64,000 bases of DNA from Pelagomonas calceolata (lineage: Eukaryota > Sar > Pelagophyceae > Pelagomonadales > Pelagomonadaceae). The translations under genes were made by a program, and so were the position numbers. Shown piece by piece: positions 6,773 through 60,803 of this stretch. Under the pieces are notes generated by a model that had not been told where the DNA came from, made no database searches, and saw only the letters and a list, made by a program, of their open reading frames with translations. Where the stretch lies: contig CAKKNE010000005.1 in NCBI GenBank assembly GCA_918797485.1, forward strand, positions 4,092,001-4,156,000. The letters are read 5' to 3'. Position 1 is the first letter of the stretch. Each line of letters begins with the position of its first letter.

Positions 6773-7307
6773 TTTTTATAGCGTTGTTTTTAGACTTTGT
6801 CGCTGCGGCGGCGTGTCGCTTCGGCGTTTCGCGCTGCGCGCTGCAATGTGTTGCTGCAGGAGCAGGGCTGCTCTGCTCTGCTGTATACAGTACGGTAGGG
6901 ACACGCGGCTGGGCGCAGTCGTCGGCACAACGCTGTGAGGGCTTGATGCGCTACACGAATTAGTAACTGACTATCTCTAGGCCGTAATGCAGCTCCGCGT
7001 CCCGTCGCCCGCTTGTCCATGCTTGCTAGTGCCTTCATGCCGCTAGCATTTCGGCTAGGACTACGTCGCGGGGTAGTCTGAGGGCTCCCCACACCCCCGG
7101 GGAGGCCAGGAACGGGTCGCGCGCGTCGCTTCAATCAAATAGTGGCTCGCTTTTCCACAGGAGATGGGCTTGTGAGTTTGGCTTTTGCGGCTGTTCGACG
7201 ACCGCGTAGAGCAGCCCCACCGAGGCAGCGCGCCCAAGAAGGCGCGCCCGAGGCACCCGAGCGTGTGTACCGCCAAAACAAGCAAAAACAAGGCAGCCCG
7301 AGAGACC
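6773..7307. other. Divergent promoter region between DIM1 and the sulfatase
   Basis: No gene supported. It contains a CTAG box at 7026-7046. Confidence 0.6.
7026..7046. promoter_or_regulatory. CTAG box
   Basis: CTAGTGCCTTCATGCCG followed by CTAG. It lies 262 bp upstream of the sulfatase ATG and 254 bp upstream of DIM1. Confidence 0.5.
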
Positions 7308-9206
7308 ATGGACGGGCAGCCCATCTACGACGCGTCGGAGGGCGAGGAGACGACCAGCCTGCTGCCCCACCAACAGCGGCGAGCGAGGCGCCTGCGCCCC
7401 GCCGTCGGCGCCGCCGTCGCCTGCGTCGCGGCCTTCGGCGCCGTCGCCGTCGTCACGAACGCCCGGACGACGGAGCTGCGCCGAAGCAACGACCCGGAGA
7501 TCGGGAACGTCGGGCGGCGGAGCGCGGCGAAGACGCCGACGATCGTCATCTCGCTGCTCGACGACCAGGGCTACGCCGACGTGCCGTGGCTCGCGCAGGA
7601 CGCCGCGACGCAATCCGCGATGCCCTTCGCGGACGCGCTGCGCAAGGACGCGGGCGGCGTCGACGTGAAAAACTACCACACCTGGCGCGACTGCACGCCC
7701 TCGCGGGCCATGCTTCTCACCGGAAGGCACCACGCCCAGCTGGGGATGCACGTGCCGCTGCTGGCCGGCGCGACGGCCGCGCTCCCGACGGACGAGCAGA
7801 CGATCGGCGAGCTCCTCGAGAAGGCGCGGCCGGGCGCCTACCACAGGGCCATCGTCGGCAAGTGGGACCTCGGCGCGGCTTCCCCCAAATACGTCCCCAC
7901 GGCGCGGGGCTTCGACGCCTTCACGGGCTTTTACAACGCGATGATCGACTACTTTGACTGGACGATCGAATCGGTGGCCATGACCGACATCGCCGGGACG
8001 ATCCTCGACGCGCAGCGCAACGACGGGCCGTCGCCCAAGGCGGCGGGCCAGTACACGACGCGGTTCCTGCGCGACGCGGCGCTCGGCGAGGTCGCCGCGG
8101 CCAAGACCGCGGGCAAGGCGCTGTTCTTGTACGCGGCCTGGAACGCGATCCACTACGACGTGGCGATCCCCGACGCGCACGCGCTGGGCCAGCCCGTCTA
8201 CATGAAGGCCGTGGGCCTCGGGCTGCCGCAGGAGCGGGCGCTGGCCCTGGCGGCGCTGCGCATCGTCGACGCGGCGAACGAGTGGATCTACTCGCGCTTG
8301 GACCGGGACAACACGATCTGGATCCAGACGAGCGACAACGGCGGCGAGCCCCACAAGGGCGCCTCGAACTACCCGCTGCGCGGCGGCAAGGGCTCGGGCT
8401 GGCAGGGCGGCACCCAGGTGCCGTGCTTCATGTGGCTCGGGGCGAACCTGCGCGGCTCGCTCAAGTCCTACGAGGGCCTCGTCCACGTCACGGACTGGGT
8501 GCCGACGTTAATAGGAGGCGCCCTGGGCGCGCCGGAGGCCCTCCCCGACGACCTCTACGGCCAGGACCTCTGGGAATCTTTGAGAGGCAACAGCGAGAAG
8601 AAGCGCGAGGACATCCTGCTCCTGGCCACGGCCGGCACGGGCGACGACGCGGGCGAGGCCATGGTCTCGCTCCGAACGGACCGCTATAAGGTGCTCATCG
8701 GCCAGGCGCCGTGCGCCGTCGGGACGCCGTCGAGCGAATACGCGGGCTGCGACTGCTCGGCCGACCGCACGACGGTCTGGGTCTCGGATCTGTTGGAGGA
8801 CCCGTCCGAGAGCACGAACCTGAACTGCGGCGACGCGCTGCCGGCGGACGTGCGCGCCGACCTCGCGGACCGCCTCGCCAAGAACTGGGACATGCACGTC
8901 CAGCCGGCCCAGCGCCCCTGCTACGACGAGACGCGGGCCGCGACCTTCATCGAGGCCGAGTGCTCGTACGACGACGTGCAGTACTACTGCCCCTGGCTCG
9001 CCGCGGACGTCGCCGACGCGCCGCGCTACGAGGCGGACGTGCCCAAATCCACGCACTTCAACTGGCTCGCGCGGGCGCCCGACGTTTGTATAAAGGACGC
9101 CGACAGCGCCCAGTTCGACGTGACCTGCGAGAACGCCTTCGTCCTCGACGAGCTCACGCTCACGACGGACCACATGGAGGACTGCTCGGCTCTTCGCGGT
9201 TCGTAA
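7308..9206 (+). CDS. Membrane-anchored sulfatase (arylsulfatase-like)
   Basis: 632 residues from the ATG at 7308; the open frame extends further upstream but this Met precedes a cytosolic tail and a membrane anchor (~30-50). The metal-binding opening is LLDDQGYADV. The formylglycine signature is DCTPSRAMLLTGR (~128), with the Cys to be converted. Also present are GKWDLG (~183) and the metal-binding SDNGG (~342). Most family members have GKWHLG, so the active-site His is Asp here. A Cys-rich C-terminal segment follows the catalytic domain. Expected to hydrolyse sulfate esters in the endomembrane lumen or at the cell surface; the substrate is unknown. Confidence 0.9.
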   Translation: MDGQPIYDASEGEETTSLLPHQQRRARRLRPAVGAAVACVAAFGAVAVVTNARTTELRRSNDPEIGNVGRRSAAKTPTIVISLLDDQGYADVPWLAQDAATQSAMPFADALRKDAGGVDVKNYHTWRDCTPSRAMLLTGRHHAQLGMHVPLLAGATAALPTDEQTIGELLEKARPGAYHRAIVGKWDLGAASPKYVPTARGFDAFTGFYNAMIDYFDWTIESVAMTDIAGTILDAQRNDGPSPKAAGQYTTRFLRDAALGEVAAAKTAGKALFLYAAWNAIHYDVAIPDAHALGQPVYMKAVGLGLPQERALALAALRIVDAANEWIYSRLDRDNTIWIQTSDNGGEPHKGASNYPLRGGKGSGWQGGTQVPCFMWLGANLRGSLKSYEGLVHVTDWVPTLIGGALGAPEALPDDLYGQDLWESLRGNSEKKREDILLLATAGTGDDAGEAMVSLRTDRYKVLIGQAPCAVGTPSSEYAGCDCSADRTTVWVSDLLEDPSESTNLNCGDALPADVRADLADRLAKNWDMHVQPAQRPCYDETRAATFIEAECSYDDVQYYCPWLAADVADAPRYEADVPKSTHFNWLARAPDVCIKDADSAQFDVTCENAFVLDELTLTTDHMEDCSALRGS

Positions 9207-9622
9207 GGGCACATTTGTTTACTTGCTTTGCTTAGCGCTAGGCCGCCTAGCCACGAAACCGACACCTCTCTGCGTGACCGCACGCCCGCCCCGCCCCCGG
9301 CCCCCATACGCCGCCCGAGTGTTAGCTTGGGTGAGGCCTACAGGCAATCCGGACGACCTCTGCTGAACCTGACGTGCGGATGTTTCCGCCGCAGCAAGCT
9401 CGCGTCGGGGAAATCCGCGTGCTAGCGGCCTGTAAGACACTAGGCATCCCTAGCAAGCAGCAAAAAAGTAAGGACACGGCACAGGGCTGCCCAAGCGCAT
9501 AAGCGATGGAACGGGCGTGCGTGGACGTTTTATCGAAGCCGCCGGCGCGTTGCTGACGCCCAAAGACGGACTGCTGCCCCACGCCATCGCCGCGAGGCAG
9601 CACTGCCTCTAGCTACACAACC
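9207..9622. other. Intergenic region with CTAG box and duplicated leader
   Basis: No gene seen. It carries a CTAG box at 9422-9443 and the first copy of a tandem leader duplication beginning near 9577. Confidence 0.6.
9422..9443. promoter_or_regulatory. CTAG box
   Basis: Reverse orientation: CTAGCGGCCTGTAAGACA followed by CTAG. About 180 bp upstream of the ATG at 9623. Confidence 0.55.
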
Positions 9623-9673
9623 ATGGCCGCACGCCATCGCCGCGGCAGCTCCGCCTCCAGCTGCACACCCATG
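9577..9673 (+). repeat. Imperfect tandem duplication spanning the start codon
   Basis: Two ~49-bp units, each beginning CACGCCATCGCCGCG and each ending in an in-frame ATG (9623 and 9671). Both begin with the core sequence found inside introners. Confidence 0.7.
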
Positions 9674-10936: not shown

Positions 10937-10987
10937 TAGTTCTTAGGCCGACGGAGGGTGAGAAGTTCGAATTCGTGCGGTTTTTTT

Positions 10988-12619
10988 TTATGTTTCGGCT
11001 TCGGGCTCGAGCGCAAATTGCTCGGCGCGCAGCTCGACTTGCAGATTGGAGAACCCCGGGCTCAGCGGCTGCTCGGGGGCGGCCTCGATCGCGACCTCCT
11101 CCACGGCGCTGGCCTCGCCCTCCGGCACGAGCTCGCCGTCGACTGGCTCCTGCTCAGGCTCCGCCCACACCGCGGTGTCCGGCACGACCTCGCCGTCGAT
11201 TGGCTTCTGCTCAGGCTCCGCCCACACCGCGGTGACGCGCGCGGCTATTTTTCCGAGCCAAGAGCCAATCCATCCAGGTCCCATGGCGGCGACGGCGTCC
11301 AGGTACTCCTGCTGACTAATCGTCCCGTTTTGGTCCTTGTCAGCCTTGCTCATTATTTCGTGAACGCGCTCGAGGGTCACGTCCGCATTGTTCTTCGAGA
11401 GCGCCCGGAAGATCTCGTCGGCGGTCAGCTCGCCGTCACCATCAGTGTCCATCTCGGCAAATGCGGCGATTGCGGCGCGCTGTTCCTCTGAAAGTTCGGG
11501 TGTTGGCGCCGGGGGCTCCGCGTCCCGTAGTGCGACCTCAAGGAACCAGACCATCTTCGGGGGGCCGGGGCAACAACACCCGTCCGACTTGACCGTCGTC
11601 TCCCGGCGCTTCAGCGTGACTCCGACAGCCTCGTATTTTTCCCGCAATTTAGCTATCGCACCGTCGAATTTTGCCCTGCTGGTAGGTTGCGCCCTGACTT
11701 CGGGGAAACCCCGGAGGTCGTCGACGAAGTCGTCAGGCGGGATGCGTCCGCGGAGGAAGAGCGGGTACTTGACCTTGAACCCGGCCTGACTTCTTCTAAT
11801 GTAGTACCACTCAACCAGCGCCGCGAATTTACCGACTTTACCCCCCTCCCGAAACACGCCCTCCTTGTTCCACAGAGGCACCATTTGCTCGGGATCGAAG
11901 GACATCCGACTCGTGCGCCAGGCGCCAACCGATGTCGCCAGCGATGCGTGCAGCGCCCAGGTATTATCTCTAACGTTGTGTACGACGCGCCAATCCTTGG
12001 CCGACTGGAGCCAGCTGCCGCCCGGCATAGGGGGCGGCGATCTCGGGTCGACCGTGATCGCCACGCGATATTCCACGTCTCCTTCGGCACCTGCCAGAGT
12101 CGAAATATCGTGTGGCGTGAGAACCATCCAGCCGCCGTCGGTTCGGCAAGATATGCGCCTCCCGACGATACCGTCGCAATATTCGAGGGCCACCCGCCCG
12201 GGGGCTCGCGGCTCTCTCACAAATTTCCTCCATTTTTCCAAACCCCCCTTGGCTGTCCGCCCCCAGTAATACCCGTCTTCCCTGGCGGACCACGCGATGA
12301 AGTCGTAGGATGACCCCCGCGGCTGGTTGGCAACCATGTGTTCACCCCTTCGCCCGAGCCAGCCGTCCCTGCTCTGAAGCCTGTACCTGTTCAAGCGATC
12401 AGTCTTGTACAAAGTAAAGACAGCGGCTTGGTCGCGCGAATACACGCAACGCACAGAGTTGTCGCCGTCGCCGTCGATGCCGACCCAGTTGTTGTTTTGG
12501 TTGCCCCAATGCCCCGTCACGCACTGGAGCTTTACCGCATCGCCGGCGGCGAGCCACTCGATGGGCTCGACCCCGTCGGCCGCGAACAGGCCCATCGCTG
12601 TGCACACAGAGTCAGTCAA
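10988..12619 (-). CDS. EF-hand protein with a C-terminal 19-residue tandem repeat
   Basis: 543 residues. The first ~370 have no recognised family; the first part is rich in Trp/Gly strings (GHWGNQNNNWVGIDGDGDN, YYWGRTAKGG) suggestive of a beta-rich binding domain. Two canonical EF-hands follow near residues 388-460, with loops DTDGDGELTADE and DKDQNGTISQQE, both complete for Ca2+ binding. The acidic C-terminus has two copies of TAVWAEPEQxPxDGExVPx. A Ca2+-regulated scaffold is a reasonable inference. There is no signal peptide. Confidence 0.8.
   Translation of the reverse strand: MTDSVCTAMGLFAADGVEPIEWLAAGDAVKLQCVTGHWGNQNNNWVGIDGDGDNSVRCVYSRDQAAVFTLYKTDRLNRYRLQSRDGWLGRRGEHMVANQPRGSSYDFIAWSAREDGYYWGRTAKGGLEKWRKFVREPRAPGRVALEYCDGIVGRRISCRTDGGWMVLTPHDISTLAGAEGDVEYRVAITVDPRSPPPMPGGSWLQSAKDWRVVHNVRDNTWALHASLATSVGAWRTSRMSFDPEQMVPLWNKEGVFREGGKVGKFAALVEWYYIRRSQAGFKVKYPLFLRGRIPPDDFVDDLRGFPEVRAQPTSRAKFDGAIAKLREKYEAVGVTLKRRETTVKSDGCCCPGPPKMVWFLEVALRDAEPPAPTPELSEEQRAAIAAFAEMDTDGDGELTADEIFRALSKNNADVTLERVHEIMSKADKDQNGTISQQEYLDAVAAMGPGWIGSWLGKIAARVTAVWAEPEQKPIDGEVVPDTAVWAEPEQEPVDGELVPEGEASAVEEVAIEAAPEQPLSPGFSNLQVELRAEQFALEPEAET
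11121..11234 (-). repeat. 57-bp tandem duplication inside the EF-hand gene
   Basis: Units 11121-11177 and 11178-11234 differ at only a few positions, and each codes for 19 residues in frame. A recent in-frame duplication. Confidence 0.9.
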
Positions 12620-12719
12620 AAACGCGGCCGCGGGCAGCCCCAGGCGAATTGTCGGCTGCAGATCGCCGCGCGCGTGGAAGAATAGCTTCTAGCACTGCTT
12701 GCGTCTCTTGTTTCATTAC

Positions 12720-12738
12720 CTAGAGTGTCACTACCTAG
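12720..12738. promoter_or_regulatory. CTAG box, divergent copy
   Basis: CTAGAGTGTCACTACCTAG, 101 bp upstream of the EF-hand gene start on the minus strand. The inner sequence is diverged. Confidence 0.35.
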
Positions 12739-12790
12739 GTATAGCTCCGCGCGACGCGACCGACGAGGGGCCATATATAACCACTATGTC

Positions 12791-15564: not shown

Positions 15565-15638
15565 TAGTTTCGCATACTAGTATCTCTTCTGCTGGGACGC
15601 AGCGACAGCGTTCCCGGCAAAGGACCCGTCGGAACTTT

Positions 15639-15660
15639 CTAGTGTGTTACGGGCCGCTAG
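15639..15660. promoter_or_regulatory. CTAG box
   Basis: CTAGTGTGTTACGGGCCG followed by CTAG. 171 bp upstream of the Mad3-like start at 15831. Confidence 0.6.
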
Positions 15661-16966: not shown

Positions 16967-17659
16967 TCAAGCCGCGCGCTCGAGGGGCTCCTCGTCGTCG
17001 TCCGCGGGCTTCCCCGGCCGCTCGCGCGCCGCCACGACCTCGTCGACGACCCCGAACTCCTTCGCCTCCTCGGCCGTGAAGTACGTGTCCCGGTCCATGA
17101 CGCGCTCGATGGCCTCGACGTCCTTGCCCGTGTGGCTTACGTAAATCTTGTTGAGCTTCTCGCGCGTCTTCAGGATCTCCTTGGCGACGATGGCGATGTC
17201 GGCGGCCTGGCCCTGGGCCCCGCCACTGGGCTGGTGGAGCATGACCTGCGCGTTCGGCAGGCAGCGCCGCATCCCGGGCTCGCCGGCCGCGAGGAGGAGG
17301 GACCCCATCGACGCCGCCTGGCCCAGGCACAGCGTGCCGACAAGCGCTCGGATGTACTGCATCGTGTCGTAGATGGCGAGGCCCGCCGTGACGCTCCCAC
17401 CTGGCGAGTTGATGTAGAGGCTAATAGCTCGTTCCGGATCTTCGGCTTCGAGGAACAATAACTGCGCCGTAACGAGCCCGGCCATCTCGTCGTGGACCGG
17501 CCCCTGCAGCATGATGATGCGCTCCTTGAGCAGCCTCGAGAAGATGTCGAAGGCGCGCTCGCCCATCCCAGAGGACTCGATGACCATGGGTACTAAAGGC
17601 ATGCCGCGCGTGGCGGTCTTGAGGACGGGTGTTGTTCTTCTTAGGGCGTGGCGGAGCAT
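16967..17659 (-). CDS. CLPP: ATP-dependent Clp protease proteolytic subunit ClpP, mitochondrial
   Basis: 230 residues from the Met at 17659; upstream in-frame Met at 17719 is less likely. [19 protein letters not shown] is an Arg-rich amphipathic presequence without acidic residues, so the matrix is the likely site. The family core is clear: [31 protein letters not shown], the catalytic Ser in [11 protein letters not shown], the catalytic His in MLHQPSGG and Asp in MDRDTYF. It forms tetradecamers that degrade proteins fed by ClpX. It diverges from the gene at 18032 across a 372-bp region with a CTAG box. Confidence 0.95.
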
Positions 17660-18031
17660 TTTTCTTGTTTTCTCGAAGCGGCCGGCGTACGGTGTTACGG
17701 ATTGGCAGTGCGCGTGCAAGCGTTCTTATGTGGAGGCTCAAGGGTGGGACGAATCGCTCTAAATGCTGCGTGTGTGGTTCGAGTTGCTTAAGGTGGCAGC
17801 TCTCCAGTGGTTCGTGTGTCCAGGCGGTCACGAGCCGTGCGAGGAGGAGCTCCAGTGCAGCTGAACGTATAGGTGCGAGCTAGCTCGTAAAGGCACTAGA
17901 AAGACGGCTGCTCGCGCGCAAGCTCGGCCCGCAGACCGCTGCGTCACCGGAACACACGTGATTCCAGCGCTTTACATCCTATCAAAACCATACATTCGGT
18001 CGCCGTCGCGCCGGAGTCCACAGGAAGACAC
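17660..18031. other. Divergent intergenic region
   Basis: No gene seen. Holds the CTAG box at 17880-17899. Confidence 0.5.
17880..17899. promoter_or_regulatory. CTAG box
   Basis: CTAGCTCGTAAAGGCACTAG. 221 bp upstream of the ClpP start and 133 bp upstream of the gene at 18032. Confidence 0.5.
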
Positions 18032-21253: not shown

Positions 21254-22840
21254 TCAATTTCCTAGGCACTTCTTGCACCGGCCCTTCCCATTCGCCGCCT
21301 TTCCCCACTGTTTTTTGGAAAAGTCCGATTGCGGCAGGGACGTGGAGCATTGGGCGCACGACCGCCGCTTGCTCGGCGGCAGCTTGCACGACCGGCAGAG
21401 CCGGTCATTTTTTTCCCATTCCCCCTCGTCGGGGAAGTGGTAAGGGTCTTTTGACCTGCCGCATCTCGAGCAAGCCCGGACGTTGCAGGTCCGACACTCG
21501 CGGCCGGTGGCGCAATCCCACTGCACCGACGAAAACTCGCTCCGCCCCTTCGACGCGCCGCACTTGCAACAGTCGCGAACGTTGCACACCCGGCAGAGCC
21601 GCTCGTCGCCCTCACGTTCCCACTCCGGTTCCTCGAAGTCGGCGCGCGCCTTCGACGCGCCACATTTGCGGCAGGCGCGAACGTTGCACGTGCGACAGAG
21701 CCGCGTGTCGCCGGCCCACTCCCACTCCTCCTGCTCAAAGTCGTCGCGCGTCTTCGGCGCGTTACATTTCGTGCACACCTGCGTGGCCTGAGCCATGCGG
21801 AGCAAGTTGGCAATCGTATCGTCGTCGTAATAATGACTAAAGTTCCCTCCCGCGCTGTGCGTCACCCCTACTTCAGGCACGACGCCGCAGCGGGTAATCA
21901 AGTACTCCACAAAGTTCTCCACCTCGCGTATCCACTTGCTCCCGGAAACGGGAAATATGTTCTCACGATGAATCCAATCCAAGTCGTACGTCGAGGTGGA
22001 AACCAGCGATGGGTTCTCCTTGAGTAGCGTCGGTGTGAAAGCGCCTCGGCCGTCCATAGCATTAGCATTACCCATGTCAATTGTAATCGCGAGCTCGGTC
22101 GGCTTGGCCCCTAGCTCGAGCAAGGCGTCCATGATCTCCATCGCCCAGGGCGACTGAACTGACACGCTGAGCTCCAGCGGCGTGATCGGTTTGTTGGGTA
22201 ACTTGCCGTGCCACTCCTCGTACTCCTGCTCAAACAATCGATGGCCGAGCTCTTCGTCACCATGACGGCTCAGGAAGACCCGACGATATCTCTTCTTCCC
22301 GGGGGGCTGGGGAAAGTCGTCTAGGGACAGAGGCGGCCAGTGCCGCTGATCCAGCGCGTCCGGGAACTTCTCGGCGACGAGGGATAATCGTTTTTCTGCG
22401 GCGCGGCTCAGACCCTGGTCCTTCATGGCCTGTACGACCAGGTCCATCACGAGCTCGCCCGGCGCATCCCTTGCGCGGTCCGAGAGAGGTTTCCCCTGCA
22501 GCAATGGCTGCAGTTGTTTGCTCGTCGTGGCCAATAATACGCAACGCGGGTAGCTCCTCACAAACGAGAGCATGTGCTGCAAGACGTCGTGATCCAGACT
22601 AGCCATGCCTGTGGTCGCGGAGGCGGCCACAGGCTTGCCCTCTTTTCCGATGTAGCAACCGCTCACCGCGGCCAGCTTTGCGACGCGATCCTGCTGGCGC
22701 AGCTGATCCTGTCTTACCTTGAGCTGATTCGCATCGATGGCGCCCTTGGCGGCTAATTCCTCCAGTCGCTTGAGAGCCTGTGATATGGCTGCATCCATTA
22801 TGGCCCCGCTTGCAGCTTCGATTGCTCGCTTGTTGGCCAA
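21254..22840 (-). CDS. Protein with five C-terminal CxxC repeats (Stc1-like)
   Basis: 528 residues. The N-terminal ~330 are helical; a segment near residue 80-110 (DHDVLQHMLSFVRSYPRCVLLATTSKQLQ) resembles an F-box-like helix bundle. From ~365 to the end, five ~33-residue modules follow: CxKCxAxK, an acidic/aromatic middle with Phe and Trp, then RLCRTCNVR. The spacing and the F...W pair resemble the Stc1 zinc domain, which in fission yeast links RNAi to heterochromatin. Function here is inferred only from that likeness. Confidence 0.72.
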   Translation of the reverse strand: MANKRAIEAASGAIMDAAISQALKRLEELAAKGAIDANQLKVRQDQLRQQDRVAKLAAVSGCYIGKEGKPVAASATTGMASLDHDVLQHMLSFVRSYPRCVLLATTSKQLQPLLQGKPLSDRARDAPGELVMDLVVQAMKDQGLSRAAEKRLSLVAEKFPDALDQRHWPPLSLDDFPQPPGKKRYRRVFLSRHGDEELGHRLFEQEYEEWHGKLPNKPITPLELSVSVQSPWAMEIMDALLELGAKPTELAITIDMGNANAMDGRGAFTPTLLKENPSLVSTSTYDLDWIHRENIFPVSGSKWIREVENFVEYLITRCGVVPEVGVTHSAGGNFSHYYDDDTIANLLRMAQATQVCTKCNAPKTRDDFEQEEWEWAGDTRLCRTCNVRACRKCGASKARADFEEPEWEREGDERLCRVCNVRDCCKCGASKGRSEFSSVQWDCATGRECRTCNVRACSRCGRSKDPYHFPDEGEWEKNDRLCRSCKLPPSKRRSCAQCSTSLPQSDFSKKQWGKAANGKGRCKKCLGN

Positions 22841-22933: not shown

Positions 22934-22955
22934 CTAGCGGCATGTAACATACTAG
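22934..22955. promoter_or_regulatory. CTAG box
   Basis: CTAGCGGCATGTAACATA followed by CTAG, 94 bp upstream of the start at 22840. Confidence 0.5.
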
Positions 22956-26292: not shown

Positions 26293-26314
26293 CTAGTGGC
26301 CTTATGCGCGCTAG
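26293..26314. promoter_or_regulatory. CTAG box
   Basis: CTAGTGGCCTTATGCGCG followed by CTAG, 198 bp upstream of the start at 26095. Confidence 0.5.
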
Positions 26315-27882: not shown

Positions 27883-27903
27883 CTAGCTGCTGTAAGACAC
27901 TAG
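27883..27903. promoter_or_regulatory. CTAG box
   Basis: CTAGCTGCTGTAAGACA followed by CTAG, 79 bp upstream of the rhomboid start. Confidence 0.55.
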
Positions 27904-33536: not shown

Positions 33537-33556
33537 CTAGTGTGTCGACACACTAG
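33537..33556. promoter_or_regulatory. CTAG box, perfect palindrome
   Basis: CTAGTGTGTCGACACACTAG is a perfect 20-bp palindrome, followed by TCCGTAACA. 137 bp upstream of the start at 33400. Confidence 0.55.
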
Positions 33557-34948: not shown

Positions 34949-35320
34949 TGCTGTGCTTAATCAACTCTAGGCTGTGCTGCTGCAACTTTATGCCAGCGGT
35001 GATCGCAATGCACGCGCGCGCTGCGAGTGCAGCTCTGATCACTTGCGCAGTGAATAGCAGTTCTTAAGACAAGCCAGTGATGCGAGCGTGAGGCCTAGCG
35101 CTGTGAACGCGTGGTGCTGTGGAGGCTCACCAAAATCGCTAGCGGCCCGTAAAGACACTAGAAAACGGAACCCTGCGACGTAAACTAGCCGCCACCAGGA
35201 GAGACGTGCGCGCGCGAAACTGGGATATCCCGCCGACGGTAATCGTCCACGCACACTCATAACAAGGGTTCGGACGCGGCTCTACTCGTCGAAGACGCGG
35301 TCTCTGTAACAACAAGTACA
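34949..35320. other. Intergenic region
   Basis: 372 bp with the CTAG box at 35139-35161 and nothing else recognised. Confidence 0.5.
35139..35161. promoter_or_regulatory. CTAG box
   Basis: CTAGCGGCCCGTAAAGACA followed by CTAG, 191 bp upstream of the start at 34948. Confidence 0.55.
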
Positions 35321-36685: not shown

Positions 36686-37031
36686 CGCTTCCTACAGGCC
36701 GCAGCAGTGTAGTGATATGTAATATCGTGCGCTAGCGATATATGCGTGTGCGTACGGCTCCCCAGAGCCAAAGGCGCCGTACTTTCTAGTATGTCTTACG
36801 GCCGCTAGCTCACCTTGCCTCCGCCGTAGCTTTTTAGGTGGATTCCAGCCTCAAGCGACCTCTGAAGATCCTACGCACGCCTCTGCGCCTCACACGCAGC
36901 AGTCTCAGCGCCAGTCACGCCGCCGCCGCGTCCATTTTACGGCGTCTACGGCAGCAATCAAGATCCACGCGTCGGGAACGCGCGACAGCCGCAAAGCCTC
37001 CACTACCACAAGATCCACCGCGAGACCAGCC
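36686..37031. other. Divergent promoter region
   Basis: 346 bp between two divergent genes, with the CTAG box at 36786-36808. Confidence 0.55.
36786..36808. promoter_or_regulatory. CTAG box
   Basis: CTAGTATGTCTTACGGCCG followed by CTAG. 101 bp upstream of the minus-strand start at 36685 and 224 bp upstream of the plus-strand start at 37032. Confidence 0.6.
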
Positions 37032-39438: not shown

Positions 39439-39459
39439 CTAGTGGTGTTGTTACGCTAG
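39439..39459. promoter_or_regulatory. CTAG box
   Basis: CTAGTGGTGTTGTTACG followed by CTAG, between divergent starts at 39326 and 39625. Confidence 0.45.
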
Positions 39460-43406: not shown

Positions 43407-46400
43407 TCAGCGCATCGCCTCGGGCTCCGGCGCACCCGGTGCGAAGGCGGTCAGCAGGTCCCGCTTGAGCGCGTCCGTCACGGGCCACTTCTCTTTGGCG
43501 GCGGTCGTCTGGAACCACGTGATGACCGTCGTGAAGGGGCAGTCCCAGGGCTGCTTGGCGTGGGTCTGGAACTCGTTGCCTCTCCGGTAGACGTGGCCCT
43601 GGCCCATGCCGCCGCTGTATTTCGAGGAGGCCCGCACCATGAGCTCGCCCGCGAGGAAGGGCGTCTCTCTCCTTATAGACTTTCGCGTTTGCAGGCGGCC
43701 CGCCGTCTCTGGCACGACGTAGCAGAAACTGAGGGCCTTGCCGTCTCGTTCCGCCGCTTGCAGGAGTTCGACGACGTGGTCCTCGACCGCCGTCGATCTT
43801 ATGGTGAAGGGAGGGTTCAGCTCGAAGGAGCCCATCTTCGGCCGCCAGTCGAAGAACGAGCCCAGCGAGCCAAAGCACCTATCCGCTTCAGAATGAAGCG
43901 AGCAGTAACTTTGGAGCGTCGCATTCAAGGGCGTCGCGAAGCCTTCGCCCTCGCAGCCCCACTCTTGTAAAGTGCCAAAGACCGCCAAGGGCAGCATGCC
44001 GTGCTGGCCCGGGTCGCTCAATAACGCGCCGTACTTCAGCAACACAACCAAACAGCGTGTGAGGAACCGCGCCTGCTCCAACTGCTGCTTCTGGGCATTC
44101 CCAGCACACGTCGCCCGTATGAAGTGGTCGTGCCTCCTTTTGAGGCGGAAGAGGACCTCGAGGCGAATACACGCCCGTAATTTCGGCGCGGCCTTGCAGA
44201 CGAGCTCGCACGTCTGGCCCCGCGGGTTGTCGACGCGGTGCACGCCTGTGTAGACATCAAGCAGTGAGTCGGGTGCGCGTCGATGGCGTGCGGGCCACGA
44301 TTCAGCCGGAGAAGCGCCACGAAGATTTTCGTCATTGTGTGTGCTTGTCGATCGACGCGGTGCCAGGGACGACGTCACGGACGGCGTCGGGGTTGCGCCG
44401 CCGCCGCGACGTCTCGCGCGGGCGGATCGAAGGCCACACAGAAACCAAGGACGCCGCACACAAACCACAAGTCGCGTCCGTCCAGTCGTCCGTCGCGCAG
44501 TCGCGCGAGAACGTCTCGAGCGTGTCCGACGTCTCGTCGTTGGCCTTGAGCCAGGAGCGAGCCGCATCGCTCGCAAGTTTTTTAGCATTGGCGCCGGCGT
44601 AGGGCGAGGCCGGGTCGGGCTTGGCCTTGTGGACGAAGTCGAGGATGGACTCTTCCAGTTTCTGGTGCGTCTCAGAACATTCTAGAGACGGCAGGGGCCG
44701 CGTCCGCGTCCGCGACGGCGCGCTCCCGGCCCAGAAGCTACAATACCCGAACAGGTTGCCCGCCTCCTTCTGGCCCTCGTATCCCGAGGGCTTGATGCGG
44801 CCGGCCCTAACACACGCGTCCCGCAGCAAAAAGTCCAGGTCGGCCCGCGAGTCCTGGGCCGCCTCGCAGCCCTTCTCGACCATGAGCAGCGGCGACGTCG
44901 TGTAGTCTATAATAGGTGTCCGCGGCCTCGCGGACGGGTCGTGCTTGTAGGGGCACGCGTCGCCGTTCCGGCACTCGCCGCGCGCCCAGAAGTGGCACGC
45001 CGTGTCTCCTCTAGGATCGGGGCTCGGCCTCCTCTGGACGACGGCGGGCTTCTTCGGCTTCCTAGGGACGGCCGTCGGCTTCACGACAGGTTCGACGGCG
45101 GGCGCCTTCTTCGCCTTGAGCTTGCGGCGCGGGATCTTCGCGACCGGCGCGGCCGCGGGCGCGGCGGCGGCGCGCTTGCGGGCCTTGGTCTCCGCAGAGC
45201 GCTCGACGGCGGCCCACGCGTCCGCCGCGGTACTCGGCGCCCGCGCCGCGGCGGCCCAGACGGCCTCGGCGCGGGCCTGGGCCCGCGCGCCGACGGCTGA
45301 CGCCGCCTTCTTCGTCGCCTTCTTCTTCTTCGGCGGCGCGCGGGCCTTCTGCTGCGGCGGCAGCCGGATGTCGTGGTTCTCGCGCGGCGTCACGCCGCAC
45401 TGCTTCAGGCGGCGCTCGGCCTTCTTGTTGGGCCTAGCTTGCCGCAAACTGCGCAGGATGCCGGCCTCGCACCGCCGGAAACACTCCTTGGCCCGCATCA
45501 CCTCCCGCTCGCCGTCGTCGAAAACGACGTCGACGTCCCCGTCGCCCCTACTATTAAGATCGGCCTGGACCACGGTCCCGCCCCACCACTCCTGGCCGTG
45601 CTCGTCCTTATCAAATAAAGCCCACAACCGGTCGCCTCTTTGCACGCCGCGCGCCGAGCGGTCGTTCTCTGCTATGACCATCGTTACTACTTCCTCCTCT
45701 TCGAACTCCTCTTCCTCCTCTTCTACCTCTTCTTCGGCGGCCTTCGCCTTCTTAATAAGTTCTTCGACGCCGGCCTTCAGTCTCCTCGCCTTCACGGGGT
45801 CCGCGTCGTTGCGAGCCTGAATAGCGCCGTTCGCCGCCTTCCAGCGCTCGAAGAGCGTCGTTGCTTGTTCTATCGAAGCGCTGGCGTCGGCCTGGCCGTA
45901 GGTCTTCTGCTTCTTGAGCTGCTTGAGGGCCTGGATGACGCCCGTGGCGCCGAGGCCCTCGTAGGACGTAATACTGTTCTCGACGTCCCCCAGAGCGTCG
46001 AGGGCGCCGAGCGCTTTCACTGCGGCCGCCGGGTCTCCCTCGGACGCGGCTTTTCCTAAATCGGCGCCGCAGCGGGCGAGCCGCGCGAGCAGCGCCGCCT
46101 CCTCGGCCTCGGCGGCGGCCGCCCGCTCGGCCGCGCCGCCGTCGTCCTCTTCTTCCTCCTCGTCCGCGATGCGGCGCCGCGCCCGCGGCGAACGTGGCTT
46201 CTCGTCGGGGATCTCGGCGGCCGCCTCGTCGACGGGCTCCTCCTCGTCGGGCGGCGCCTCGTCGGCGTCGACGGGCTCGTCCGCCTCGTCCGCCTCGTCC
46301 ACGACGGGCTCCTCGTCCTCGTCAGCCGGCGGCGCGGGCGCCTCGTCGTCGTCGTAGGGCTGCGTGTCGACGGGCTCCTCGTCGGCGCTCTCCGTGACGA

Positions 46401-48033
46401 CGCGCGCCGGCGCCGCGGCCTCGACCGGGCCGGCGCGCGGCGACGACGACGGCGACCGCCGCTTCCGCAGCGTCGCGACGTCCTCGTCACTGTCCTCGTT
46501 GGTCGACGGCGGCGTGTCGTCGGACGGCCGGCGCGAGCGCGCTTCCGGAATGGCGACGGCGAGCGGGCCGAGCACGGACGCCGCGACGTCCGGCTTGTTC
46601 CGGTTGTTGTCGAGGCGGCTCGCGAGGACCGTCGCCGCGTCGAGCGACGCCGCGCGCCGCATGGGCCGCTCCTCCGCGCCGGCGGGCTCTTCGACGACAT
46701 CATCAATCTCCGCCTCGCCGAGGCCACTCGCGTTCACGCACGTGTCGCAGCGCCACGTCCGCCGCCGCCGCCGCTGGCCCGAGCAGTCGCGGCACATCTC
46801 GACGGCGCACGCGTCGCAGCGCACGCAGCCGTCCGCGTCGAGCGACCCGTCCGGCAGTCTGGTGGATTCCCCGCACATGAGGCACGCGCGGTTTTCTGTG
46901 GATGGCGTCGCGGGCGTTGGTGGAGGCGGCGGCGGCGCCGCGGCGGCGCCGTGGATCAAACATTTCCGCATCGTCGTCTCGGCGTAGGCCTGGCGGTAGC
47001 CCGGGTCGTCGTCCCAGCGCACCTCCCACTTGCCGGACGCGCGCTGGGCCGAGATCGTGCCGAGCCACTTGCGTGCGCCGAAGCCGGGGAAGGATTTGGC
47101 CACTCTTGCTCCTACTCGTACGTCGTTCATCGGCGGCGGCGGGGGCGTCGGCGGCCGCGGCGGCGGCGGCGGGCGCCGGAGGCGGACGATGGTCTCGCCC
47201 TTGGCGTTGAAGCGCGCGCCGGGCGGCAATGGTCGCGGCGGCGCGGCGGCCGCGGGAGCTGCCACGGGAGCCGGCGGCGCTGCGGGCGGCGCGGCGGCCG
47301 CAGGAGGCGCCGGCGCAGCGACCGCGGGAGGCGCCGGCGCCGCGGGCGGCGCACCGGGGCCGATCGTCTGGCGCTTCACGCGTTTGCCCTTCGTCGCGGC
47401 CGGCGCGGTGGCCACGACGACGACCGGCGGGGCCGCCGCGTCCGACGCGGCGCGCGGCGCGGGCGGGGTGAGCGCCATCGGCGCCGCGGGCGGCGTGAGC
47501 GCCATTGGTGCCGCGGCGGCTGTCGGCGCGGCGTCCATCGGAGCAATCGACGTCGACGGCGGTACGGCCGGCGTGAGCGCCATCGGTGCCGCCGTAGCGG
47601 TGGGCGCGGCGTCCATGGGAGCCGTCGGCGGTACGGCCGGCGTGAGTGCCATTGGGGCGGCCGCGGCGGTCGGCGCGGCGTCCATCGGAGCTGTCGGTGG
47701 TACGGGCGGCGTCAGCGCCATGGGCGCGCGTGCGGGCGGCGTTAGGGCCTTTGGCGCTCGCACACTGGGCGCCGCGTCCATGGGCGCCAGCGCGTCGCCG
47801 CAGAGCATCGGGTCGCCGGCCGCGTCGGCCTCCGTGAGCCAGGGGTCGACGAAAGGCGGCGCGGCGCGCTGCGGCGCGGCGACGGGCGCTGTGCGCCCCC
47901 CGTCCAAGGGCATTGGGGCCGCGTGGGGGGTCCCTGGCGGCTGTGCCTCCTGAGGGGCCATGTCCATAGAGCCTTCATAGGAAGCGGGGCAAGCCGGCAG
48001 TGCGTCGCCGGCTGGTGGATTGTTGAAATCCAT
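43407..48033 (-). CDS. PCIF1/CAPAM-type cap adenosine methyltransferase fused to Tudor-like, PHD-like and CCCH modules
   Basis: Exons 48033-44364 and 44245-43407 give 1502 residues. The first ~300 are Pro/Ala-rich with repeats of APMALTP. Next are a Tudor-like barrel (~305-365), a Cys cluster of PHD/RING style (CLMC ... CVRCDAC ... CRDC ... CDTC, ~385-440), a long acidic region, and a second Tudor-like barrel (~795-840, RLWALFDKDEHGQEWWGG). A CCCH finger (CHFWARGECRNGDACPYKH, ~1011) follows. The C-terminus matches the PCIF1 catalytic domain: ATPLNATLQSYCS, FGSLGSFFDW and the catalytic SFELNPPF (~1366). In animals this enzyme makes m6Am at the mRNA cap. Donor choice is not settled (GC at 44363, or a GT upstream in the same phase). 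Confidence 0.85.
44246..44355 (-). mobile_element. Introner element in the PCIF1-like gene
   Basis: The end CACTGCTTGATGTCTACACAG minus one base, the TGGCGCTTCTCCGGCTGAATC-like segment and GCACGCCATCGACGCG match the family at 4891. A 12-bp direct repeat, GCACCGCGTCGA, occurs at each side of the intron, so the target duplication may have shifted. Confidence 0.75.
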
Positions 48034-48315
48034 GATCGCCTGGAGCCGCGCGCGCGCAGGCGCGCAGCACTCGGCGTCTCTCTGCGCGTCGATTTGCGCT
48101 AGCTAGCGGCTGTAAAGACACTAGCAAACCAGGCATAATATATTATCTGTAACATCGACGAAGGAGCATAAATATTCTGTGGCGCGGCGCGATGGAGCTA
48201 GGCGTCGGAGTCCATTTGCGCGCGAGCCCGACGCGGACACATGACCGCGACTGTGGGGAACACGCCGTCGCCGCGCTCCATCACCAACGGATCCACAACG
48301 AATCAGTAGAAGAGG
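48034..48315. other. Intergenic region
   Basis: 282 bp between two minus-strand genes. Contains the CTAG box at 48103-48124; nothing else seen. Confidence 0.5.
48103..48124. promoter_or_regulatory. CTAG box
   Basis: CTAGCGGCTGTAAAGACA followed by CTAG, 70 bp upstream of the PCIF1-like start: the closest of all copies. Confidence 0.6.
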
Positions 48316-49803
48316 TTACTTCGGAGGCGTAGGCGTCGCGTGCTTGACGTCGACGACCTTGTCGAGGATGACGTGCTTCGCCGTGCGGGCGCAGTCGCGC
48401 GCGGCTCCCTCGTCGGCGTAGGTCACGAACCCGAAGCCGCGCGAGCGCCCGTCGCGCCGCATCACGATGCAGCTCGTCACGCGCCCAAACCGCTGGAAGT
48501 GCGCCCGGAGCTCGCCGTCGCCGCATGCGTGCGAGAGGCCGCCCACGAAGAACTTGCGGTTGCCGATGTTGAGGTCGGCTGTCGGCGGCGGGCCGTGCGC
48601 GAGCTGTCTCCTTGCAGCTTGAGAAGCCGGCGACGGGGGGCGCCGCCCCGGCGGCCGCCCCGCCGTGCCGTCGTCGTCGGGATCGGCCCAGCGGAAGCCG
48701 TCCCAGACCTTGCCCGGCGGCGGCCCGCGGGGCGGTCCGCGCGGCGGCCCGCGCGGCTGCGGCGGGCCGCGCCCCCGGAACCGCTCGGGCGACCGGCCAC
48801 GTGGCGGGCCCCGCATGTCGTCGCGTGGCGGAGGGCCGCGGTTGTCGCGTGGCGGGCCCCGCACGTCGTCGCGTGGCGGAGGACCGCGGTTGTCGCGTGG
48901 CGGCCCCCGCACGTCGTCGCGTGGCGGAGGACCGCGGTTGTCGCGTGGCGGGCCCCGCACGTCGTCGCGTGGCGGAGGACCGCGGTTGTCGCGTGGCGGG
49001 CCGCGGAAGCGGTCGTCTTCGCGCGGCGGCAGCGCGCCGGGCGGAGGCACGTCGAAGCGCGGGTCGTAGCCCGTTTTCGGGCCGGGGCCCCGCGGCGGGT
49101 TGCCGCCGCGCCCGTGCGGCGGCGGCCGCCGGTCGGGCGAGCGGCCGCGCGGCGAACGCCGGTCCGGAGAGCGCTCGCGCGGCGGCGGACCTCTGAATCC
49201 GTTATCGCGTGGCGGCGGGCCGCGGTCGGGGCCGCGCGGCGGCGGCGCACGGAAGCCGTCGCGAGGTGGGCCCCGCAGGTCGTCGCGCGGAGGCGGGCCG
49301 CGGTTGTCGCGCGGTGGGCCGCGGAAGCCGTCACGTGGCGGCCCGCGCCGCGGCGGCGAGCGCGAGCGTCGATCGCCGGGCCCGTCGCCGCGCGGCGGGC
49401 CCCGCCGATTATCACCACGCGGCGAGCCCGGCGGCGTGCCGAGGTTCGGGGGCCCGCGGGAGTCGCGCGGCGGCGACCGCGACCGGCGGCCCGGCGGCGA
49501 GCGCCCGCGTGGCGGCGGCCGCCGCTCCGGCGAGCGGCCGCGCGGCGGAAACTGGCCGCGCGGCGGCGGCGGGCGCCGATCCGGCGAGGGCGAGCGTCGC
49601 GGCGGCGACCGCCCGCGAGGGCGCCGGCCGGGCGGCGAGCGCGACCGCCGGTCGTCGAAGGGCGACGCTCCATAGGGGATCTGCTGCGATCGTTGCTGCT
49701 GCGGTGGTTGCCTTGGCTGGCGTTGCTGGACCTGTGACCGCTGCTGCGCACTTTGGCTGAACTTGCGTTGAGTGGATTGACTGGCTTTTTTTTGAGGGGG
49801 CAT
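48316..49803 (-). CDS. RRM protein with long Arg/Pro/Gly/Asp-rich repeats
   Basis: 495 residues from the Met at 49803 (or 501 from 49821). A Gln-rich start is followed by ~330 residues dominated by RSPxRRxPP and RGPPxRDxxRGPP, including four 16-residue units of the type DNRGPPPRDDVRGPPR. One RNA-recognition motif closes the protein: RNP2 KFFVGGL and RNP1 RGFGFVTY, ~415-485. The design is typical of splicing or RNA-granule proteins that phase-separate. The exact target RNA is unknown. Confidence 0.85.
   Translation of the reverse strand: MPPQKKASQSTQRKFSQSAQQRSQVQQRQPRQPPQQQRSQQIPYGASPFDDRRSRSPPGRRPRGRSPPRRSPSPDRRPPPPRGQFPPRGRSPERRPPPRGRSPPGRRSRSPPRDSRGPPNLGTPPGSPRGDNRRGPPRGDGPGDRRSRSPPRRGPPRDGFRGPPRDNRGPPPRDDLRGPPRDGFRAPPPRGPDRGPPPRDNGFRGPPPRERSPDRRSPRGRSPDRRPPPHGRGGNPPRGPGPKTGYDPRFDVPPPGALPPREDDRFRGPPRDNRGPPPRDDVRGPPRDNRGPPPRDDVRGPPRDNRGPPPRDDVRGPPRDNRGPPPRDDMRGPPRGRSPERFRGRGPPQPRGPPRGPPRGPPPGKVWDGFRWADPDDDGTAGRPPGRRPPSPASQAARRQLAHGPPPTADLNIGNRKFFVGGLSHACGDGELRAHFQRFGRVTSCIVMRRDGRSRGFGFVTYADEGAARDCARTAKHVILDKVVDVKHATPTPPK
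48800..48991 (-). repeat. Four tandem 48-bp units inside the RRM gene
   Basis: Each begins CGTGGCGGGCCCCGCA (or a one-base variant) and encodes 16 residues in frame. Differences among the four are single bases, so the array is young. It is coding sequence. Confidence 0.9.
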
Positions 49804-49836
49804 CGCGCTAAGGGGGGACAAGACTGAGGGTGAGAT

Positions 49837-50341
49837 TCAAGACGCGGCGAAAAGGAAAAGAAACCATGCCAGAACTAAGGAAACGTACCCCTTGGCAGCA
49901 TCATCTGTCGTTGTTGTGTCCCACTTCGAGGGCCGCCGCCGCCGCCGCGGCGACGCCGACGACGACGACCGCCGGCGGCGGCCGCGATCACGGGACCGCG
50001 ACCGCGACGGCGACGGCGACGCCGCGGCCGGCGACGGCGGCTTCAGGTTTTTTAGTTCTGCAGCGATCTTCGCCTGTAGACTCGACCATGAACATACTAA
50101 TATCACAAAAAACAACAAGCTGCTCTACTAAATGCTATCTGACTCCGCCCGGGACCTCCCGGCTCTTCAAACTGTTGCGCAGGTCGCGCTGCTTCATCAG
50201 GGCCACGGCCCGCTTCTGGAGCTCTTCTGGATCTTCATCAAAGACCCCTAAATCATACATCTCCTCGTCGGCCTTCTTCTTTGGTTGTTCGGTTGTTGGA
50301 GGCTCGCCGGGGTCGTAGCTCTCCTCGGAGTCGCTACCCAT
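49837..50341 (-). CDS. Small acidic/RS-rich protein, two exons
   Basis: Proposed exons 50341-50144 and 50073-49837 give 144 residues. Exon 1 is acidic (MGSDSEESYDPGEPPTTEQP) and then helical (LQKRAVALMKQRDLRNSLKSRE). Exon 2 continues KIAAELKNLKPP, then SPSRSRSRDRGRRRRSSSS, an RS-like domain, and a hydrophobic end (LVLAWFLFLF) that could be an artefact of a missed stop or splice. A splicing-related role is inferred from the RS tract only. The donor (GT at 50143) is chosen by frame. Confidence 0.5.
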
Positions 50342-50346
50342 GGTTG

Positions 50347-50682: not shown

Positions 50683-50702
50683 CTAGTGTCTTAGTCCGCT
50701 AG
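50683..50702. promoter_or_regulatory. CTAG box
   Basis: CTAGTGTCTTAGTCCGCTAG, 342 bp upstream of the start at 50341. Confidence 0.55.
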
Positions 50703-53154: not shown

Positions 53155-53527
53155 AGGCTGAAGCCGCGCCGCCTAAGTAGGCCCGGGCCACCGTATCTTT
53201 TGTATTGAGTCGCGGCGATGGCGTACCGCGGGGGTATTTCTGTTGCGCCCGACCAGTGCGAGCGTCCGGTATTGTTACGGTGCTGGAAAGTGCGCGGAGA
53301 TGAGAGTTATGTGCGCGGATAAATTGCTAGTATCTTACGGCACGCTAGCCGACTATCGTGAAAAGGCGAGGCGCCACTGTGAGCCAAGCGCTGCAGCAGA
53401 GTGCACAAAAAAGCAACAGAGCGCAGCATTCGTGCGCATCTCCCACTCCACAAAACCCCAGACGAGGAGCGGCACGGCTAACGCAAGCATCAACCTCGCC
53501 GCCTGCTGACCAGGCCAGCAAAACGCG
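53155..53527. other. Intergenic region
   Basis: 373 bp with an isolated introner-core string (GTCGCGGCGATGGCGTAC near 53210) and the CTAG box at 53327. Confidence 0.5.
53327..53348. promoter_or_regulatory. CTAG box
   Basis: CTAGTATCTTACGGCACG followed by CTAG, 180 bp upstream of the ATAD3 start. Confidence 0.6.
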
Positions 53528-55354: not shown

Positions 55355-55551
55355 GAGTGGTTGTTTAACTTAGATATTTATCGTACTACAAGTGCTTTCT
55401 CGCGCGGTTTTACCGGGTAAGGTATCGGTATGGTACCTTACCTCGGTGGTAGGAGCCAGCCGCAGCCTCAGTTTTTCAGCAGTTTGCCACCAGCCGTGCT
55501 CTTTCAGTGCTCGGAGCAACATCGCTCATATTTTCCATCAACTGCAGCCAT

Positions 55552-56880: not shown

Positions 56881-57023
56881 CCACGGTCGACGCGTCGCGC
56901 TACGCGAGCCGTGGTTCACCACATGGACTAGTCTAAGGATTGTGTTGTGTACTACTTAGCATTCTTGGAAGAGAAGAAACAGAGCTTATAGTGTGCAAGC
57001 GAAAAGGCTCAAGAAGGACGTCA

Positions 57024-60000: not shown

Positions 60001-60275
60001 TTCATCTTCTCGCGCAGCTCGAGCGTTATTTTTTTATGGGGCTTGTGGCTCGGCGGCCCCGCCGTCGTCGCTATTACTGTAACGTTCCATTCCGACGTCT
60101 GCGCGACCTCGGTCTCGCCGTAATACGTCGTGATGCAGGGCTCTCCAGCTAATCCGCGGCCCTTCACGATCCTCACGCGGAGCTGGCCGCCGCCGTCGCC
60201 ATCAATGCTATTGCGGGTCGAGCGCGGCGTGGGGTTGCTCTGGCCGCTGAGGCTGCGCGTGAGGTTGTTGCGCAT
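57024..60275 (-). CDS. C2 / EF-hand / C2 / PH-like / degenerate alpha-beta hydrolase protein
   Basis: 1083 residues. Order: a C2-like domain (~30-150, LRVRIVKGRGL), two EF-hands (~185-255; loops DTSQNGELDRDE and DADLDGDEHVTFDE, both complete), a second C2-like domain (~268-420, RVDVVVHSCRGL), a PH-like region (~540-640, RWLVLGPHAD ... FATRRELYAWWKRLQ) and an alpha/beta hydrolase-like domain (~720-1010). The hydrolase nucleophile elbow reads VLWGGAPTGAVA, with no Ser at the GxSxG position. Ca2+-dependent membrane binding is likely. Enzymatic activity by the normal mechanism is not. Confidence 0.82.
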   Translation of the reverse strand: MRNNLTRSLSGQSNPTPRSTRNSIDGDGGGQLRVRIVKGRGLAGEPCITTYYGETEVAQTSEWNVTVIATTAGPPSHKPHKKITLELREKMNTLRDLKDVFEGHGAALGTVVVDVGSLGGLDEKLRISRQWYEVRPPRRTPRHGSNYGEIEIEIDYQPPKKLQSFGKGLFLDADARSLNLLGALFDRCDTSQNGELDRDEFRRLYAKLRDLDAVYSTDNTMTPNHAAQLFFRDADLDGDEHVTFDEVRAAAKRAALRKLPSRVDVVVHSCRGLAHASSVKKSTWCCTTDALEEHTFCTVSVDGEPFSRSRLRSYTHSPRFEHLTSIEDGSHHGEVVSVELWHRRKGKAPTPLGRCDVDVLAEQLRAEPISGAQYQSSSAWHRVAPTDGFGDVQGQIMIEIRFYPPKDTPRVRGGHHASLMSPTTLKRHEEQGRRQFDKFWPSYRGPCAVSFERDSGEGVGELLDDAVGGQVGALAYACSCLGIHWSETLANTVNAGVPTRPGTHVGPQKKRSTQRWLVLGPHADRPGASRDAYLRYSVRSWKGADACHAAPDEPSESFSIHWQDSFVCGDRADSEGILEIESKKNGSVELKFATRRELYAWWKRLQRIQERTMKLGLPADPRAQKFLPRHCRSSERTGSLDAVAESVSDAAETAAAHNDPDSWVVVQHSAKRILERLTRPPRVDTASLGPRVFAYRVRDAIGQLGEILTYERDDVMLETQREGRKVSVSCWRHVEQWHPGHGTTKMGEHDVVVYCSSTRSSGRSDAISSGALTICCELRCALVAVDFLGSGGSQDAGASFGYWERYDLLAAVRYAKRQFPSAKIVLWGGAPTGAVACALYGSVRLEVALKGMVLDGCTTQLKTHVSDLASLAIKPTSALRRKLVDDVVALVDERFRKRTGVGLKAVAPQTAITNHAFSGTHCLLIGEKDGDVGTARDADILHSELDRAHPEDEHHLLLVGGRTARQRHKKRHVPQALEAVAAFIGRRFDVSKGFRYFTVNSPKGIRDHLLHSVPPWDHSDADDADLRATHEALSREESILPSEPSFRAPLQPSESNEEYKEYHGDDDPGPGRTRIVKAISFHE

Positions 60276-60803
60276 CGTCTCTGGTAGTGCGGTCTCGCGT
60301 CTGGCGCAAGTGCTGGCGTGGGCTGCTTTGGAAGTGGTCTATGCAGTGTCGTAGGCGTGGGCGCTGCCCGTTCACCTTGATTCGCTGGGAGCCAACGAGC
60401 GCCGACGCTGGAGAAGCGAGTGATGGCTGCCCTCGCGTGCCGTGATTGGATTCCCAGCCGCAGCCAAAATAATTGAGATGGCTTTGAGATTTGTGTGAGA
60501 GGTGCGGGGTTTTCGCGAGGTGTTCCCAAGCTTGCAGCGCTCGGCATGATAGTTCGATTGCTTCTCATACCCGTGTATAGGGCGCGGGCCTAGTGCTAGT
60601 GTGTGTCGACACGCTAGCTAGCTTCAGCCTTCAGCTGCTCTGCCTTGCGGTTAGCGCCGGTGTACAATCAGATAGATTGGCTGGCATCACTACCAGGACT
60701 GCTGACACGTGCACCGAGCGTGCGAGCGATTTAGCATCACCGCTGCGGTACAGCTGTTCAGCAAAACCTCACAGTGCACTGAGGCTGCTGCCAACACACA
60801 GAG
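60276..60803. other. Divergent promoter region
   Basis: 528 bp with no gene. Contains the near-palindromic CTAG box at 60596-60617. Confidence 0.55.
60596..60617. promoter_or_regulatory. CTAG box, near-palindrome
   Basis: CTAGTGTGTGTCGACACG followed by CTAG. It shares the GTGTCGACAC centre with the copy at 33537. 187 bp upstream of the ABCG start and 321 bp upstream of the start at 60275. Confidence 0.5.

Follow-up and report, generated by a model that had tools for sequence, protein, structure and literature searches.

A CTAG-bounded box in promoter regions of Pelagomonas calceolata as a candidate site of a general-regulatory-factor-like protein

Introduction

The fungal Reb1, Abf1, Cbf1 and Rap1 sites, those of the general regulatory factors, measure 7-13 bp and are promoter sites at many unrelated genes. 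The bacterial TrpR operator consists of inverted CTAG half-sites bound by a dimer. Here we describe an element that shares features with both, the CTAG box, in Pelagomonas calceolata, a tiny and very abundant ocean alga. The box was noticed in a stretch of 64,000 nucleotides (the window; GenBank assembly GCA_918797485.1, contig CAKKNE010000005.1, positions 4,092,001 to 4,156,000) and comprises 20-27 bases with CTAG at either end. The initial annotation of the window took it for a general promoter element, a proposal which its placement in the sequence supports, with the restriction that about half of the promoter regions, and not all of them, carry it. We consider it probable that the box is the site of an abundant, probably dimeric protein of Pelagomonas and its near relatives, comparable to a general regulatory factor, which would open a shared bidirectional promoter.

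Compared with the fungal sites, the CTAG box is longer and richer in information (~32 bits over ~27 bp as the sum of matrix columns, a figure that is inflated because the training sites were picked by their two CTAGs), has inverted CTAG ends, never occurs twice per region in our sample, and is known from sequence alone. The TrpR operator differs in being bacterial, in its closer spacing and in serving one regulon, and the analogy is one of site layout only. The oomycete elements INR, FPR and DPEP are, like the box, promoter motifs specific to a lineage within this larger group (PMC3599244); they lie near the start site in the core promoter of one gene, whereas the CTAG box has no orientation bias and stands singly between divergent genes. 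Excerpts of two studies describe how fungal lineages swap one general regulatory factor for another over time (PMC2897762), and how such factors shape the direction of transcription and restrain unwanted divergent transcription (PMC9481977). We found no description of the CTAG box in the open-licence literature (other papers and supplements being outside this scope), and the words motif and promoter had 0 occurrences in the main texts of P. calceolata papers that were searched. A discrete box by which promoter regions, and a promoter class, can be recognised from sequence would offer a handle on pelagophyte transcription, and should be useful for gene annotation and as a source of parts for genetic tools. 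It would also provide an example from nature of the origin and replacement of general promoter factors in a lineage other than fungi and animals.

Definition and copy number of the CTAG box

According to sections of PMC9481584, the assembly of P. calceolata RCC100 comprises six nuclear contigs (32.4 Mb), a 90-kb plastid and a 39-kb mitochondrion, with 16,667 genes and 0.45 introns per gene, and introner-like introns are present. We scanned 32,445,274 bases in 8 contigs for genome-wide counts. Detailed analysis was carried out on a 284-kb nuclear sample (0.9% of the genome), consisting of the window and 22 of 24 10-kb stretches at round coordinates; the organellar loci L026 and L027 were left out, as were L001-L008, which had been cut around motif matches. 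Gene models were those of our own simple gene finder, trained on this sample.

The initial annotation listed 16 CTAG...CTAG copies in the window. All 16 coordinates were reproduced by the pattern CTAGN{11,15}CTAG, for which 100 dinucleotide shuffles gave a mean of 1.8 and a maximum of 5. Distances between CTAGs peak sharply: in the first 244 kb of nuclear DNA, gaps of 12, 13 and 14 bases were represented by 10, 15 and 23 pairs, with 0-5 pairs at most other gaps, and none of six other palindromic tetramers displayed a comparable peak, TCGA showing only a three-base rhythm. The 284-kb sample contains 12, 17, 28 and 4 pairs at gaps of 12, 13, 14 and 15, respectively, and the whole genome 5,914 pairs at gaps 12-15 vs 950 at the equally wide control gaps 26-29.

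The overall consensus is TTG-CTAGTGTCTTACANGCCGCTAG-CT, the ends of which are similar and inverted. Its commonest form, CTAGTGTCTTACNNGCCGCTAG, has 1,064 + 1,012 genome-wide matches with two or fewer mismatches (reversed control, 0), and the palindromic form CTAGTGTGTCGACACACTAG occurs at 94 places in the genome under the same tolerance (control, 0). From the gap 12-15 sites we derived a two-block matrix, TTG-CTAGTGTCTTAC-(0 to 3 bases)-GCCGCTAG-CT, trained on 53 of the 61 sites, with spacers of 2, 1, 0 and 3 bases in 28, 12, 10 and 3 sites, and subsequently scored on the same 284-kb sample that had served for training. There were 71 matches at a score of 6 or more (49 at 27 or more, 13 at 12-27 and 9 at 6-12), and a box was called at a score of 12 or more. 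Both CTAGs at gaps 12-15 are present in 56 of the 62 boxes called, whilst random sequence of the same dinucleotide make-up yields 0.2 matches of this score per 70 kb. Over 56 sites, informative positions reach 5 bp beyond the left CTAG (TTG) and 2 bp beyond the right one (CT), and the flanks further out carry almost no information. The two half-sites are alike and inverted, GCTAGTGTC and, on the other strand, GCTAGCGGC; they resemble GCTAGYGKC and enclose a variable centre. Scaling up 62 boxes per 284 kb, and considering the 5,914 strict pairs, which include some background, we estimate ~6,000-7,000 boxes per genome. By our own arithmetic ~13 bits suffice to mark this number of sites, and the box carries more than twice that.

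Two further observations concern the CTAG word itself. By a simple Markov estimate over the 284 kb, it occurs 233 times in predicted exons vs 296 expected and 321 times in non-coding DNA vs 231 expected. In two boxes (window 9422-9453 and L031 4521), the left CTAG is immediately preceded by an additional CTAGGGATGC, which places a third CTAG 10 bp away.

Placement relative to genes

The boxes are concentrated in promoter-containing spacers. Of the 62, 48 lie in divergent (25) or tandem (23) spacers, 7 in predicted introns, 6 at edges and 1 in a convergent spacer, whereas the 212 kb of exon contain no box. Plain CTAG pairs at gaps 12-15 (n=61) show much the same distribution, with 26 divergent, 21 tandem, 7 intronic, 5 at edges, 1 convergent and 1 exonic, this sole exonic pair being unlike the consensus. 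For the window, where the copies had been said to avoid coding regions and to sit 70-345 bp from an ATG, 15 of the 16 are found in spacers between predicted genes, at 78-341 bp from the nearest predicted start codon, and the remaining one (15639) is in a doubtful predicted intron.

A single box is present in 48 of 102 promoter regions and two boxes in none, although 9.1 regions with two are expected by length (p=0.00005). The divergent regions are particularly informative: 25 of the 52 carry one box, 27 carry none and 0 carry two, and a model in which each gene has its own box predicts two in 11 of them (P(0)=4e-6). Instead, divergent genes share one central box (centrality p=0.00005; p=0.0006 with a second annotation). 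Thus, the box is a property of the promoter region and not of the gene, since there is one shared copy and never two.

The positional preference that the initial annotation had called for is pronounced. Distances to the start codon fall between 90 and 300 bp in 60 of 72 cases vs 36 expected (p=0.00005), and in tandem regions they have an SD (standard deviation) of 69 bp vs 144 bp for uniform placement (p=0.0004). The last 80 bp before the start codon are avoided, with 1 of 47 boxes vs 13 expected. Spacers of at least 1.1 kb were omitted from the placement test, which used 47 of 48 boxes, or 52 of 54 with the second annotation; the placement picture was the same for both. No orientation bias was detected in tandem regions, where 9 boxes have the same and 14 the opposite orientation (12:16 in the second annotation). 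GC content is ~0.54 at the box vs ~0.68 at 300 bp, indicating local AT-richness. Between 69 genes that have a box and 69 that lack one, neither length nor GC3 differs clearly; the coding score is slightly lower in the former (uncorrected p=0.026, in one of three tests).

Conservation in relatives

A scan of prokaryote genomes with the exact consensus returned 3 places, at which the box stretch or the surrounding contig is 82-96% identical to P. calceolata; these matches are apparently mis-binned or partly chimeric algal DNA. One bin, G001, contains contigs of a relative, with aligned blocks of ~76-90% identity to P. calceolata. We compared 12 boxes from relatives, 3 from the exact scan and 9 on three G001 contigs taken for showing box-like pairs (among the G001 contigs with such pairs, C18 and C170 were left out, and C141, C146 and C182 were used in part, with 6,000 of 8,293, 9,000 of 9,645 and 3,500 of 9,938 bases). 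The orthologous P. calceolata region has a box of score 12 or more for 11 of the 12. One of these 11 is flipped (L036 5353) and one has moved (L033 7907). Conversely, where a spacer of the relative lacks a box, P. calceolata likewise has no match that reaches a score of 12 (3 of 3 cases; best 7.2).

Letters were compared for 11 of the 12 pairs, L034 being left out. For the ten pairs in register by script, identity is 79/80 for the CTAG letters, 110/131 for the core and 1,459/1,972 for the flanks; for the eight pairs that aligned in place without stitching, the figures are 64/64, 91/105 and 1,213/1,623, the flank identity ignoring insertions in P. calceolata. Viral contigs scanned with three versions of the consensus gave no match, in a scan that may omit records close to P. 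calceolata. As to the prokaryote-named records, L033, L034 and L035 derive from marine bins named Spirochaeta and proteobacterium, and their contigs or contig parts match the P. calceolata nuclear genome, apparently as eukaryotic contamination of, or chimeras in, these public bacterial bins.

Alternative explanations and proposed mechanism

The box could be a core promoter element that the initiation machinery recognises in a single gene, at its transcription start site or close to it. Its concentration in promoter regions and its tight distance to start codons agree with this, as does the occurrence of unusual core elements in stramenopiles, of which PMC3599244 describes the oomycete INR, FPR and DPEP. 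However, its strand is not fixed relative to the gene, there is not one box per gene, and the box tends to be central, 6 of 26 divergent cases being 150-260 bp from both starts, and we therefore regard a core element as unlikely. The length and symmetry of the box, together with the absence of an orientation bias, are better accommodated by a dimeric DNA-binding protein. Single occurrence per spacer, lack of orientation bias and location between unrelated genes would equally suit an insulator, or a boundary or loop site, that separates neighbouring transcription units and does not activate promoters. This we judge improbable, given that the distance is tied to start codons and that convergent spacers, albeit short, are almost without a box (1 of 55 regions).

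Two other explanations are far less probable. With thousands of dispersed copies, in a genome that has introner-like introns (as noted in sections of PMC9481584) and other short repeats, the box might have been left behind by a mobile element (transposon or introner) or be a terminal repeat of one. Such an origin is very hard to reconcile with the abrupt end of similarity just outside the CTAGs, the small number of decayed copies in the lower score classes, the finding that 8 of 11 sites aligned with relatives have kept their place, and the lack of boxes of score 12 or more in exons. The inverted repeats at its ends could also form the stem of an RNA hairpin in the 5' leader. We give this equally little credence: both orientations are in use, a single copy stands between both divergent genes, one orientation would have a C-A mismatch at the fifth pair as deduced from the consensus, and the window is without an Rfam match.

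Several observations weigh against a site of a general-regulatory-factor-like protein at promoters. Equal density in random or intronic sequence, or a lack of positional preference, had been named by the initial annotation as grounds for abandoning the promoter proposal; the exon counts and start-codon distances given above speak for the proposal, but predicted introns, with 7 plain pairs in 9 kb, have a density similar to that of spacers. If these introns are real, this speaks against a role in promoters. When introns were forbidden in the gene models, the 62 boxes were redistributed to 26 divergent, 28 tandem, 2 convergent and 6 edge positions, and 6 of the 7 intron boxes fell in tandem or divergent spacers; the convergent count thereby rose from 1 to 2, and window copy 15639 was left without a nearby downstream start model. 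The convergent spacers are short, 5.9 kb in all, so that the scarcity of boxes in them counts for little by itself. About half of the promoter regions lack a box, and the search for another motif in them turned up none as discrete. The home-made gene models limit the location counts. The relatives are a separate test of the matrix, yet their boxes were chosen for being there. One of them (L036 462) has only a non-scoring CTAG pair as its P. calceolata counterpart, the counterpart of another (L047) scores just 12.3, and the alignments of L036 462 and L036 5353 were stitched with large gaps, though counted in register.

The general-regulatory-factor-like site nevertheless accounts best for the data as a whole. 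A box that occurs once per region, lies between divergent genes, shows no orientation bias, is mostly found 90-300 bp away from start codons and has been kept through movement and inversion behaves as would be expected of such a site. We infer that a protein binds the box and, from the similar half-sites in inverted order, which suggest a dimer, that this protein is probably dimeric; it would act through open chromatin. The putative factor would occupy one site per promoter region and keep nucleosomes away, creating a nucleosome-free promoter from which transcription of unrelated genes could begin to one side, to the other or to both. The information content, more than twice that needed, may point to more than one reader, such as two proteins, or a dimer and a partner, that jointly read the box. 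More tentatively, and with less confidence than we place in the factor itself, the promoters of these algae may fall into heritable classes, the largest being one in which a single ~27-bp box organises a whole bidirectional unit, in a lineage-specific system. We know of no counterpart of such a promoter system in plants, animals or fungi.

Box copies and neighboring genes in the window

Thirteen of the 16 window pairs are clear members with scores of 12 or more, and the perfect palindrome is borderline (Table 1). The pairs at 12720 and 39439 score under 6, which makes them doubtful members; they may be variants or chance pairs. Of the 20 window proteins scanned, 11 had a Pfam match, confirming the ClpP, ATAD3 and rhomboid names given initially. 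The claim that the genes behind the box are unrelated also held, in that their families differ: a box lies upstream of rRNA dimethylase, sulfatase, ClpP, rhomboid, methyltransferase, CCCH zinc finger, ATAD3 and ABC transporter genes, and a doubtful one upstream of an EF-hand gene.

Table 1 CTAG boxes and CTAG pairs in the 64-kb window, with distances to predicted start codons and matrix scores.
Feature	Position	Strand	Location	Score
CTAG box	7026..7046	+	divergent: 253 bp to start of 5852-6772(-) (rRNA adenine dimethylase family), 261 bp to 7308(+) (sulfatase family)	32.8
CTAG box, exact consensus	9422..9443	-	tandem, 272 bp upstream of 9716(+)	38.7
CTAG pair, 11-bp gap, doubtful member	12720..12738	.	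124 bp upstream of 10988-12595(-) (EF-hand)	no match of score 6 or more
CTAG box	15639..15660	+	doubtful predicted intron, 184 bp before predicted exon at 15844(+)	38.0
CTAG box	17880..17899	-	divergent: 220 bp to start of 16967-17659(-) (ClpP), 132 bp to 18032(+)	27.3
CTAG box	22934..22955	-	135 bp upstream of 21254-22798(-)	32.0
CTAG box	26293..26314	+	197 bp upstream of 23024-26095(-)	18.6
CTAG box	27883..27903	-	78 bp upstream of 26385-27804(-) (rhomboid)	31.0
Perfect palindrome CTAGTGTGTCGACACACTAG	33537..33556	.	136 bp upstream of 32828-33400(-)	10.7, borderline
CTAG box	35139..35161	-	190 bp upstream of 33686-34948(-)	33.1
CTAG box	36786..36808	+	divergent: 100 bp to start of 35321-36685(-) (methyltransferase domain), 223 bp to 37032(+)	26.1
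CTAG pair, doubtful member	39439..39459	.	divergent: 430 bp to 39008(-), 165 bp to 39625(+)	no match of score 6 or more there
CTAG box	48103..48124	-	189 bp upstream of 43407-47913(-) (CCCH zinc finger)	40.9
CTAG box	50683..50702	+	341 bp upstream of 48316-50341(-)	35.7
CTAG box	53327..53348	+	179 bp upstream of 53528(+) (ATAD3)	36.9
CTAG box	60596..60617	+	divergent: 320 bp to 60275(-), 186 bp to 60804(+) (ABC transporter)	28.0

Box-less promoters and other repeats

A search of 53 box-less promoter regions for a partner motif gave two kinds of word, both rejected as less discrete than the box. AAACCCG words were one. The other, GGGCWGCCC, occurs 15 times in the 49 kb of tandem and divergent spacers, 4 of these in box-bearing regions, vs 9 times in 212 kb of exon (~3 vs 0.4 per 10 kb); from this distribution it is a possible second promoter element. 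Its sites include window 9484 and 12632, L009 3075 and L016 9351. An EM (expectation-maximization) motif search of the box-less regions, begun with six seeds, ended up in low-complexity sequence.

A short repeat centred on TTACGGTGCTAGGACTAGTGGGCGGAGCCCC, which differs from the box, is dispersed over the sample, at L011 2880, L019 7873, L023 3961, L032 1527 and five more positions, its core GCTAGGACTAG occurring at 9 places in the 284 kb. Longer repeats of ~60-160 bp, at L036 299-455 and at L038 1432-1545 and 2251-2400, have dozens of copies in the P. calceolata genome at ~70-97% identity, and are possibly introners or small transposons.

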